A stretch of DNA of 10,327 nucleotides. Origin: Actinomycetota bacterium (GTDB lineage: Bacteria; Actinomycetota; Actinomycetes; Nanopelagicales; Nanopelagicaceae). Positions 909-3,844 of this stretch are shown here, one piece after another. Below the pieces are notes generated by a model that was not told where the DNA came from, did no database searches, and saw nothing but the letters and a program-made list of their open reading frames with translations. The stretch is from the NCBI GenBank assembly GCA_009703165.1, contig WLGP01000017.1, forward strand, positions 1 through 10,327. The letters are read 5' to 3'. The number at the start of each line of letters is the position of its first letter. Position 1 is the stretch's first letter. The translations under genes were made by a program, and so were the position numbers.

Positions 909-1661
909 TTACTGATTAGAGGCGCGATTATTGCGAAGGCGAGTGATCGCTTCTTCTGCAAGTTGCTGATCGAAGATCTCATCACGCGATGGTGATGTTG
1001 CTGCCAAGGCTTGGCGCTCAAGAAGTTCTTGCTCCTCGCTCCACTTACCTGGTTCAGTCAGATCGATAACGCGACGTGATGGAACTGCCTTTGCAGCATT
1101 TACATATGTAGGAACCGGAACGCTCTGTGGATCCCATTCACTTGCCGCCTTCTGACTTCCCTTAGGCAAGATTGTGACGCCAGTGGTCTCACGCTCTGCA
1201 AGTGGAATCCAATGTTCAGTAGTTGTTCGCGGTGCAACAACTTCTGCCAAATTGGTCGTGGAGATACCAGCATTGGTGCGATGAAGTTCGTCGCGGCGTC
1301 GCTTTGCAATCTTTTCAGTATTGGTCTCGTGGCGAACATGTGCAAGATAGAAGATAAATCCTGCAACAGGTAACAAGATGAGTGTGTATGTAACTGCTTG
1401 CATTACTGCACCTACCAATGTCAGTACGAATGATGTAACGATGAGTGAGAAGAAAAGTCGTCTGCGCGTCAATGTAAGTTCATGCGCGCGTATTCGATCT
1501 ACCTCTGAAAGTGGACTTACATTTCCGGCGACAACTTCAAGTGCGCTGCGATAGCGCTGGGCGCTCTTGCCGGTAAATTCATTACGGCTTTGAATCCAAC
1601 GTGGCAGAAAATAGGCAACCCACATGCCAATAATCGCCAGATAGATAATTCCAGAAGCCAT
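909..1661 (-). CDS. sepX: divisome membrane protein SepX/GlpR family
   Basis: A 250-residue membrane protein. One hydrophobic segment lies at the very N-terminus (about residues 4-20, followed by PRW). A basic/polar stretch (21-66) comes next, then a hairpin of two membrane segments (about 67-88 and 90-107) and a long hydrophilic C-terminal region. That region carries W(D)PQSVPVPTYV (176-187) followed by VIDLTEPGKW (198-207), a pattern I associate with actinobacterial SepX/GlpR. In Streptomyces SepX supports septum formation; in Corynebacterium GlpR is the membrane receptor for the gephyrin-like Glp. Here it sits downstream of glp and rimJ on the same strand, 68 bp after rimJ, consistent with that partnership. 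It seems shorter than the better-studied homologues (from memory). There is no good Shine-Dalgarno sequence before the ATG and a TAA lies in frame five codons upstream, so this is the only plausible ATG start. Confidence 0.85.
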   Translation of the reverse strand: MASGIIYLAIIGMWVAYFLPRWIQSRNEFTGKSAQRYRSALEVVAGNVSPLSEVDRIRAHELTLTRRRLFFSLIVTSFVLTLVGAVMQAVTYTLILLPVAGFIFYLAHVRHETNTEKIAKRRRDELHRTNAGISTTNLAEVVAPRTTTEHWIPLAERETTGVTILPKGSQKAASEWDPQSVPVPTYVNAAKAVPSRRVIDLTEPGKWSEEQELLERQALAATSPSRDEIFDQQLAEEAITRLRNNRASNQ

Positions 1662-1729: not shown

Positions 1730-2311
1730 TTACTCGACTGTTGGGTTCTCTTTCACATAACTGACATGGTCGCGCCACTGCCCATCGATATGTAAGTAAC
1801 GTGCACGCGTACCTTCAAGAATGTATCCGGCCTTCTCGGCGACTTTGCATGATGGCGCATTCTCTGGACGAATATTGATTTCAATACGGTGCAGGCCGAG
1901 CTGATCAAATCCAAAACGTGTAAGGATCTCAACGGCCCGCGTTGTATATCCACGGTTGGCATAATCCTGATCGATCCAATACCCGATATGGCCACCGCGA
2001 AGAGCCCCATAAATGACTCCCCCCAGCGTGATCTGGCCGATGAGGTTCGGTCCTTTCCAGATCACAAATGAGTATGAACGGCCGTTGCGGGCTTCTCGGT
2101 TAAAGGTTGCGATCATCGAAAAGTAGGAAGGTAGTTGCGGAGTTGAGGCGGCAGGGCCAGTCGTTACCCGCGGAAGAGTTGCCTCCCATTGTTGGAGCCA
2201 CTCACGATTTCGCCCACGCACTCGATTCCAACGCAGGCGATCGCGTAAACGCAATGGGCGAAGTTCTAGCTCGCCATCACTTAAGAGAATCGGCCACGAC
2301 TGTGCAGACAT
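1730..2311 (-). CDS. rimJ: RimJ/RimL-type GNAT N-acetyltransferase
   Basis: A 193-residue GNAT acetyltransferase that uses acetyl-CoA to acetylate an amino group, commonly a protein N-terminus in this subfamily. Visible landmarks are LELRPLRLRD (15-24), the strand-2 region VIWKGPNLIGQITL (83-96), and the acetyl-CoA motif A stretch GYWIDQDYANRGYTTRAV (110-127) with the N-R-G-Y loop. The C-terminal RPENAPSCKVAEKAGYILEG (148-167) is typical of RimJ/RimL proteins. The start ATG is 5 bp after the glp stop and has no Shine-Dalgarno sequence, so translation is probably coupled to glp. Its place between glp and sepX is a conserved actinobacterial arrangement. A division protein is therefore a tempting substrate, but nothing in the sequence shows which protein is acetylated. 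Confidence 0.88.
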   Translation of the reverse strand: MSAQSWPILLSDGELELRPLRLRDRLRWNRVRGRNREWLQQWEATLPRVTTGPAASTPQLPSYFSMIATFNREARNGRSYSFVIWKGPNLIGQITLGGVIYGALRGGHIGYWIDQDYANRGYTTRAVEILTRFGFDQLGLHRIEINIRPENAPSCKVAEKAGYILEGTRARYLHIDGQWRDHVSYVKENPTVE

Positions 2312-2316
2312 CGAAG

Positions 2317-3243
2317 TTAGATATATCGACGTTCGAGAACAACGACAGTGACATCGGCGCCAGCATCCAGGCTGGTAACACCTTCTGCGACTGCGATAAA
2401 TGCATTGGCATCAGAGAGGGTTGTCTGCTCATCTTGAGCCGATGAGTCTCCCTTGCCAAGAGGTGTCACTGACTTTCCATCCTCAGACAAGATTCCGCGG
2501 ACATAAGAGCGTTGACCTTCGATAGAGGTAATTGGCTTCTCTAACTTGGCCTTCACTGAAGGGCGATGAATTGTCGCAGCACCGAGCATGGTGCGAATCA
2601 TCGGGCGAACAAAGAGTTCAAATGAGATGTAGGCAGCGATTGGATCTCCTGGCAAGGTGACTACTGGAACCTTATCTGGACCGATCGTGCCGTAATTGTG
2701 GCGACCGCTAGATTCAATCGCTAAATCAATTGTGGTGATCTCACCGATTCCTGAAAGCGTGCGGGTGATGAGATCAAATGAATCGTCATGGCGTTCACCG
2801 CTGATGATGATTAAATCAGCGCGAACGAGTTGATCTTCAATGACATCTTTGAGCTCTTCTTCATCATCTGGAATTGTGTGAACTCGATATGCCACTGCCC
2901 CAGTTTCGCGAACTGCAGTAGTGAGCAGCCAAGAATTAGTTTCGTACTCTTCATCTGGGCCAAGTGTCTGACCTGGTTCGACCAGGTCAGGGCCGGCAGA
3001 GAGAACAACAACGCGTGGATGAGGACGAGTTGGAAGATGATCGCGACCGATTGATGCGGCAAGTCCGATCTGTGTTGAGCGAATACGGCTTCCCTCTTTG
3101 AGAACCAGGCGCTCACCGGCAAAGACATCTGCGGCAAGGGTTGCACCGTGTGCATCCAAGAGCGACATATCGAAGGGCTCAAGTGGTTGGCAGAGAGCCA
3201 ATAGGGATGAGAGAAACTCATCAACTCTTACATGCTCTGCCAT
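2317..3243 (-). CDS. glp: gephyrin-like Glp (MoeA superfamily), lacking domain II
   Basis: A MoeA/gephyrin-superfamily protein of 308 residues; the family is usually about 400. Residues 1-40 (VDEFLSSLLALCQPL, LLDAHGATLAADV) match the N-terminal part of domain I. The next residues, AGERLVLKEGSRIRSTQIGLAASIG (42-66), match the segment that normally comes about 100 residues later. All of domain II, including the usual FDNSxMDGYA motif, is absent. Domain III (about 76-220) keeps the fold but is altered: LSAGPDLVEPG (81-91) where the family has STGxELVxPG, SGERHDDSFD (148-157) for SGGVSVGxxD, and IESSGRHNYGTIG (176-188) for the (K)PGxPxxFG region. LPGDPIAAY (197-205) is close to the normal LPGNPxxA. 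Domain IV is about 228-306. In Corynebacterium Glp binds FtsZ and the receptor GlpR. The neighbouring sepX/glpR and the lost motifs favour a structural division role over molybdate insertion. Confidence 0.85.
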   Translation of the reverse strand: MAEHVRVDEFLSSLLALCQPLEPFDMSLLDAHGATLAADVFAGERLVLKEGSRIRSTQIGLAASIGRDHLPTRPHPRVVVLSAGPDLVEPGQTLGPDEEYETNSWLLTTAVRETGAVAYRVHTIPDDEEELKDVIEDQLVRADLIIISGERHDDSFDLITRTLSGIGEITTIDLAIESSGRHNYGTIGPDKVPVVTLPGDPIAAYISFELFVRPMIRTMLGAATIHRPSVKAKLEKPITSIEGQRSYVRGILSEDGKSVTPLGKGDSSAQDEQTTLSDANAFIAVAEGVTSLDAGADVTVVVLERRYI

Positions 3244-3286
3244 AATCTCACCATACTTGTTCGAGCTACTGAATTCGGGGATTGAC
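3244..3286. promoter_or_regulatory. divergent spacer between glp and fthC
   Basis: This 43-bp gap must serve both directions. For fthC, CATACT (3252-3257) is a possible -10, placing the transcript start near 3264, with a weak TTACAT (3228-3233) 18 bp upstream as a -35. GGGG at 3277-3280 is a plausible ribosome-binding element 6 nt before the GTG at 3287. No convincing hexamers were found for glp. In many actinobacteria galU occupies this position; there is no trace of it here. Confidence 0.35.
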
Positions 3287-3844
3287 GTGAACTTTCATAA
3301 TGAAAAGTCTGATCTCCGATTGAGATATCGCCGAGAACGTAGTGAACACTCTATAAATACTCCATTTTCATATCTTGTTGAGACAAAAGAGATTTCATCG
3401 GCACAGGTAATTGCCAGTTACATTTCATATGGTGATGAACCCAACACCCTAGAACTCAATCAAGAGATCATTAACTCTGGAAAAAAATTACTACTTCCGC
3501 GAATTACTGATCGCCATGGAAATCCTGGATTGGAGTGGGTGCAGTGGGATGGAGATCAAAGCAATCTCAAGGCTCGCGGAAAGATTCTGGAGCCGATCGG
3601 TGGCGCCGAAGAAGATTTAAATCAGATTGAAGTTGTTATCGTTCCAGCGCTACGCGTTGATCGCCGCGGTTATCGTCTGGGGCAAGGTGGTGGATATTAC
3701 GATCGCGCACTTCCACAGCTGCGTGCATGGAGCATTGCTCTCATCTTCCCTGAAGAGATATCCGGCGAGGATCTTCCACGTGAAGCACACGATATTCCAG
3801 TCAACGCTTATGCCACCTATGACATGGTCGTACGAATCAATTAA
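3287..3844 (+). CDS. fthC: 5-formyltetrahydrofolate cyclo-ligase
   Basis: ATP-dependent enzyme converting 5-formyl-THF to 5,10-methenyl-THF, a cytosolic salvage step of one-carbon metabolism. Starting at GTG 3287 gives 185 residues, the normal family length. It opens with KSDLRLRYRRER (7-18), the typical N-terminal basic helix. The ATP-binding motif GQGGGYYDR is at 132-140, preceded by IVPALRVDRRGYRL. The C-terminal EAHDIPVNAYAT pattern is also typical. The frame is open back to 3098, but that extension runs antisense through glp and resembles nothing. GTG 3287 has GGGG 6 nt upstream, so it was preferred; TTG at 3257 is the alternative. The stop overlaps the stop of the convergent acyl-CoA dehydrogenase gene. 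Confidence 0.9.
   Translation: MNFHNEKSDLRLRYRRERSEHSINTPFSYLVETKEISSAQVIASYISYGDEPNTLELNQEIINSGKKLLLPRITDRHGNPGLEWVQWDGDQSNLKARGKILEPIGGAEEDLNQIEVVIVPALRVDRRGYRLGQGGGYYDRALPQLRAWSIALIFPEEISGEDLPREAHDIPVNAYATYDMVVRIN

Follow-up and report, generated by a model that had tools for sequence, protein, structure and literature searches.

Gephyrin and the bacterial division protein Glp are two molybdenum enzymes that have been turned into scaffolds, the E domain of gephyrin reusing the MoeA fold as Glp does. Subdomain II of gephyrin forms filaments that cluster receptors, and an engineered gephyrin carrying the deletion 371-459 keeps dimerization and receptor binding but loses filaments, phase separation and clustering (PMC12441120; see also PMC13086950). 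The lobe removed by this deletion is equivalent to domain II of Glp, which in Corynebacterium glutamicum (Cgl0883; PDB 8bve and 8bvf; profile NF045515) spans residues 46-145 according to a figure legend in PMC10522489. As described in the same source, a hairpin of domain IV mediates the binding of C. glutamicum Glp to the FtsZ tail, and deletion of this hairpin also abolishes binding of the membrane protein GlpR. It is the open form of this Glp that makes the FtsZ site. Megrian et al. 2025 (PMC11733289) predict Glp to be catalytically dead and report that at least two copies of MoeA are retained in actinobacteria. Here, a stretch of 10,327 nucleotides from an Actinomycetota bacterium of the freshwater family Nanopelagicaceae (assembly GCA_009703165.1, contig WLGP01000017.1; hereafter the window) was analyzed, in which the glp gene encodes a protein without domain II. 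Unlike the man-made deletion in gephyrin, this loss has been fixed by evolution, and in a bacterial division protein. With a probability of roughly 0.75, the window Glp is a MoeA-derived divisome protein of which domains I, III and IV are left and which probably serves as a scaffold only.

The glp gene occupies 2317..3243 on the minus strand, begins with ATG and encodes 308 amino acids plus a stop codon, its identity being supported by NF045515 and Pfam profiles. Residues 39-303 correspond to positions 139-403 of the 403 positions of the NCBIfam profile NF045515. Pfam detects MoCF_biosynth (domain III) and MoeA_C (domain IV), and MoeA_N is matched over its last 22 positions only (139-160 of 160), at 16.4 bits and under its cut-off. 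The protein has kept its own start, as its first 42 residues can be aligned with the N termini of full-length Glps, and residues 42 and 43/44 are adjacent at a point where the nearest full-length relative in the same family (L137) has about 99 residues, the exact position of the cut being uncertain by 1-2 residues. When mapped via L137 onto PDB 8bve, the gap covers approximately residues 40-151 of C. glutamicum Glp, that is, domain II together with about 6 linker residues on each side. The sequence-only reading of this DNA, which had proposed that some 100 residues including the FDNSxMDGYA motif are gone in frame between residues 40 and 50, is correct in these respects: codons 40-50 (VFAGERLVLKE; predicted strands 40-42 and 45-48) lie at 3094..3126 on the minus strand, and both FDNSxMDGYA and MTGAP are absent. 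As it also claimed, no remnant of domain II exists in the upstream spacer (3244..3286), where there is no room for one since only 43 bp separate glp from a divergent gene.

The four-domain architecture typical of Glp is thereby reduced to an N-terminal piece counted with domain III (residues 1-22, 3178..3243; boundary transferred from C. glutamicum Glp), a first piece of domain I (residues 23-42, 3118..3177; placed by alignment and the L137/8bve mapping), a second piece of domain I (residues 43-73, 3025..3117; placed by comparison with C. glutamicum Glp), domain III (residues 74-223, 2575..3024) and domain IV (residues 224-308, 2320..2574), all on the minus strand. Domain III carries SGERHDD where the active-site motif SGGVSxG is expected, and the hairpin of domain IV is shortened (strands 245-252 and 258-261). 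AlphaFold predicts a confident fold for the remaining domains, in which a hairpin closes the gap on domain I at the site where other Glps insert domain II. Of the proline-rich hinges between domains I and III, the one that was compared residue by residue has a PxPR (P74, P76 and R77) that is invariant across 56 rows.

The absence of domain II is real and is not peculiar to the window genome. Among relatives, 57 of 60 genomes gave a match, with short and uninterrupted matches to a full-length query in the same genus and longer frames in other families of the class. An order-wide search yielded matches in 280 of 296 genomes, short and uninterrupted among the matches listed, which are part of these 280; the coverage of genera comes from a sample of 31 genomes representing all 17 genera of the family. 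In this sample, 25 genomes have a short Glp (including G061, which has a run of N), five have domain II and one, G245, shows no Glp but a distant MoeA match only. The five comprise four full-length proteins and a contig-end fragment reading into domain II (G091). Fifteen of the 17 genera have the same junction in common, domain II being kept in g28 and g30 only, and PF03453 is absent from all of the best 120 listed database proteins to the window Glp.

Because the window genome is only 65% complete and divided into 153 contigs (with one MoCF_biosynth match), a decaying pseudogene or an artefact of assembly or binning might be suspected. The chance of this is practically negligible, as 16 or more single-contig genomes (13 of g1, together with G095, G125 and G127) have the same form, which is also present on the chromosome of strain IMCC19121 (CP015605, L053), is shared by those 120 database proteins, and is encoded by a gene under purifying selection. 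The mean ratio of nonsynonymous to synonymous differences (pN/pS) is 0.198 over 171 pairs of 19 genes (the window gene and 18 hand-picked loci), and the median of the corresponding rate ratio (dN/dS) over 94 unsaturated pairs is 0.068, a rough value since synonymous sites are near saturation. An artefact or pseudogene was rejected on the conserved junction and this selection. The sequence-only reading had also allowed for full-length Glps in close relatives combined with an assembly error; alignment with Glps of related genomes instead gave a conserved junction, recurring in independent assemblies, with full-length forms confined to two other genera. A separately encoded domain II was likewise rejected, since none of the 21 family genomes lacking both MoaC and a long MoeA gave a PF03453 match.

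The family tree, a single-gene tree computed with the domain II columns left out and with bootstrap values that had not settled, puts the loss within Nanopelagicaceae at one event. The 29 short rows fall into a single clade (100/100), which neighbors the Glps of g28 and g30 (33 rows together, 97/89) and sits at the end of a long branch (0.73), as expected if constraint had changed. The family's MoeA paralogues are separated from all Glp rows (100/100), in a tree from which C. glutamicum Glp is absent.

Beyond the family, a survey of 158 genomes of the class, in which low scorers were followed up in 14 genomes, revealed Glps of 307 residues in G423 (family f39) and 305 residues in G374 (family f5), both missing domain II at other junctions and each encoded beside genes read as galU, rimJ and glpR. 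A second survey of 394 genomes added three more g94 genomes with a short Glp (G598, G632 and G644). The protein database contains 88 clusters of this short kind (P0001-P0088, 299-318 amino acids), three of which are still annotated MoeA_N, and a metagenome protein, P0291, represents a fourth case without domain II. Full-length Glp is kept in G432, from the other f39 genus seen, and in five f5 genomes, in one of which a contig end truncates it. The best class tree requires four changes. In it, the short forms of f39 are monophyletic (100/100), with the full-length Glp of that family as their neighbor (99/89), and the short form of f5 is placed together with full-length Glps from f5 (100/100). 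Domain II has thus apparently been lost about four times, in Nanopelagicaceae and in three further lineages of the class. This count comes from a single-gene tree in which the f5 short form is represented by one 70%-complete genome (G374) and one cluster (P0241, nine members, two contigs), P0291 is one protein of unknown source on a long branch (1.03), and the branch of L242 was flagged as long too.

The occurrence of domain II was compared with that of the molybdenum cofactor (Moco) pathway. MoaC and MoeA_N proteins occur in the same 10 of the 31 family genomes, and a loose first look gave neither a MoaC nor a MoeA_N match in the other 21, which include the 65%-complete window genome and 20 others that are at least 97% complete. 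Six of the ten (G014, G015, G190, G294, G158 and G070) combine a short Glp with a separate full-length MoeA; in the other four (G092-G094 of g28 and G100 of g30), the sole MoeA_N protein found is a full-length Glp. The sequence-only reading had also contemplated a further full-length moeA that takes the place of Glp as an artefactual paralogue. This was rejected: such copies were found in those six MoaC-positive genomes, and four of the copies (G015, G158, G070 and G294) cluster with eight from other genomes in a clade remote from Glp. In a previous comparison of four acI strains, Moco synthesis was assigned to tribe A7 only (PMC5301498).

A similar relationship was observed in other families, for each of which one representative was considered. 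All 14 MoaC-positive representatives have MTGA and a DNSxMDGYA-like motif, and MTGA is absent from all four MoaC-negative ones (G040, G046, G047 and G051; Fisher p 3e-4), by a criterion that was set after the table had been seen. These 18 remain from 20 representatives after G043 and G059 (both with MTGA) were dropped, MoaC not having been tested in them; G051 is 78% complete, and MoaC of G049 consists of two contig-end fragments that were counted as present. Of 40 genomes tested outside Nanopelagicaceae, 30 gave a MoaC match, and none of six f5 genomes did. Full-length Glps from genomes without a MoaC match (L243 and L245-L247 of f5, as well as L148, L158 and L161) were seen to carry decayed domain II motifs such as AIAAVDGYCV and TAGSAI, and they look like apparent intermediates before excision. 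Within f5, genus g5 has full-length Glps with degenerate motifs and no MoaC, and g72 presents the short end stage. This series suggests an order in which the need for Moco ends, domain II decays, and domain II is finally cut out.

Genome streamlining alone, unrelated to Moco, could also be considered, as the short-Glp genomes in which Glp was read are all small, the largest being 2.2 Mb. Yet relatives of 1.6-1.9 Mb that possess Moco and no second MoeA_N protein (g28 and g30) keep domain II, and the domain II motifs have decayed in larger MoaC-negative genomes of 2.8-3.8 Mb (G051, G047 and G046), making streamlining an unlikely sole cause. A continued role of the short Glp in pterin chemistry, for instance through binding of molybdopterin-AMP by domain III, is far less probable still. 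The catalytic lobe and motifs that are present in the molybdenum insertases MoeA and Cnx1E are absent from short Glps; in the window Glp, none of DNSAMDGYA, MTGAP and SGGVSxG is found, the half of the active site supplied by domain II is gone, and the 21 family genomes (of 31) in which MoaC found no match have no known substrate to offer.

The full-length Glps of g28 and g30 (L135-L137 and L139) belong to the same family and tree clade as the window Glp and, in g28, have the same rimJ-glpR partners. Unlike the window protein, they have domain II with intact MoeA motifs, lie next to moaC and are the sole MoeA_N proteins found in their genomes. The gene order in g28 is glp-moaC-mogA-like-rimJ-glpR, as seen at L222:2903-6435 (G094). 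On these sequence features, they are candidates for bifunctional proteins that act as both molybdenum insertase and divisome component, and their genomes look like exceptions to the pattern described by Megrian et al. 2025. Were such a sole-insertase Glp an active enzyme, the published view of lost Glp activity would be contradicted. Among 20 longer loci, moaC stands between glp and rimJ in 10, glp adjoins rimJ without moaC in nine, and one has a separate MoeA-moaC pair. A different arrangement was noted in G432 of f39 (L227 and L226). There, the Glp encoded next to rimJ-glpR has degenerate motifs, and a MoeA-like copy encoded near moaC has intact ones, an apparent division of labor between paralogues.

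Taken as a mechanism, reduction to a scaffold would have begun in an ancestor of most Nanopelagicaceae genera with loss of the Moco pathway, moaC and the mogA-like gene leaving the glp locus. Selection on the catalytic half supplied by domain II would then have been lifted, and domain II excised in frame, with a short beta-hairpin on domain I coming to connect its two flanking strands. What remains would be a dimer linking the FtsZ tail to GlpR (SepX) at the division site. We infer the order of Moco loss and excision, as well as dimerization, GlpR and FtsZ binding and the division role. A minimal scaffold form, as the sequence-only reading had put it, is favored by the conserved junction, purifying selection, confident fold, rimJ-glpR locus and the lack of a MoaC match in 21 of the 31 genomes. 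Its in-frame removal of domain II is borne out, but only two of nine FtsZ-contact residues are retained, and the scaffold role itself is a probable one. This role is likely because GlpR, SepF and the FtsZ tail are all kept, the tail in 30 of 30 FtsZs read (those given as loci among 33 matches).

Several observations weigh against reduction to a scaffold that binds FtsZ and GlpR. Compared with C. glutamicum Glp, the FtsZ-binding hairpin is shorter and the contact residues are mostly changed: V338 and L360 are kept, L343, M361, R362, A364 and F414 are changed, and Y369 and L370 fall in a gap. Accordingly, the FtsZ-binding loop signature (M361 and Y369), drawn from Corynebacteriales, is lacking, S253 standing in place of M361. 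Constraint on the short Glp is weakest in domain IV (pN/pS 0.314), and the AlphaFold model fits the closed MoeA-type Cnx1E (1.9 Å) better than the open C. glutamicum Glp (3.3 Å). At the profile level, the window Glp scores 278 bits against the NF045515 cut-off of 475, as a quarter of the profile has no counterpart in a short Glp, and the window GlpR falls under all NCBIfam SepX_GlpR cut-offs (86.5 bits to NF050099, cut-off 150). Moreover, the six MoaC-positive family genomes with a short Glp beside a separate MoeA indicate that absence of Moco is not required for Glp to stay short, and many of the genomes used are incomplete.

Such changes in the hairpin suggest that the FtsZ contact may have been remodeled, or that GlpR may be the main partner. 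A short Glp that has left the FtsZ network altogether and acts only via GlpR or another partner, through conserved faces of domains I and III, would agree with stronger constraint on the second piece of domain I (0.117) and on domain III (0.151) than on domain IV, with the poorly conserved contact residues, and with a GlpR motif around PTYVxAxKA that is conserved in lineages with short and with full-length Glp. It is nevertheless rather doubtful, given that the FtsZ tail is retained in every FtsZ read and that, in C. glutamicum, loss of both FtsZ and GlpR binding upon hairpin deletion implies that the two are not easily separable.

Loss of domain II separates the enzymatic from the scaffolding parts of the protein. 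A general proposal, to which slightly less than an even chance is given, is that domain II is a Moco-only module in actinomycetes: a Glp that is the only insertase, with moaC beside it and intact motifs, would still be both enzyme and division scaffold; after loss of Moco or takeover by a separate MoeA, domain II would decay and then be excised, independently in about four lineages; and gephyrin-type filaments would be unneeded for division. If so, short Glps would be natural equivalents of gephyrin without subdomain II, nature having made the matching deletion, apparently repeatedly, and some full-length Glps may still do both jobs. Should bacterial Glp form gephyrin-like filaments, the short forms would divide cells without them, which makes it testable whether division needs Glp assembly through domain II. 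The short Glp also offers a compact version of the protein for structural studies of the Glp-GlpR-FtsZ complex. In the open-licence literature, consulted mostly by listing, no naturally occurring Glp, MoeA or gephyrin that lacks domain II was found described, in line with the sequence-only reading, which knew of none; the terms "domain II" and "Nanopelagic" have no match in the main text of Megrian et al. 2025 (PMC11733289).

Variation was also noted in the FtsZ tails (L178-L207), which read I-D-V/I-P-D-F-M in most short-Glp genera examined and L-D-V/I-P-D-F-L in g28, g30, g29 and g37, with g39 mixed (LDVPDFM). A link between this change and the loss of domain II was rejected, because g29 and g37 keep L-D-V/I-P-D-F-L. 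GlpR of C. glutamicum binds Wag31, whose gene divIVA/wag31 has its usual actinobacterial place in the dcw cluster. In the three dcw neighborhoods inspected (L254, L255 and L256), divIVA/wag31 is not at this place, an observation that concerns these neighborhoods and is no proof of absence from the genomes; beyond ftsZ and the run of genes ending with a yggT-like gene, an ileS-like gene is oriented in the opposite direction.

Where Glp is short, its gene lies directly beside rimJ and glpR. In the window, the rimJ-like gene for a GNAT acetyltransferase lies directly downstream of glp (1730..2311, minus strand; profiles and conserved locus), followed by glpR/sepX, encoding the predicted membrane partner of Glp (909..1661, minus strand; conserved locus and motif). 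The NCBIfam SepX_GlpR models miss this GlpR (909-1661) despite its conserved locus and motif. The names galU, mogA, ileS, yggT and 5-formyltetrahydrofolate (5-formyl-THF) cyclo-ligase were assigned by eye. The last of these refers to the conserved divergent neighbor on the plus strand (3287..3844), with an inferred GTG start at 3287, which we take to encode 5-formyl-THF cyclo-ligase.
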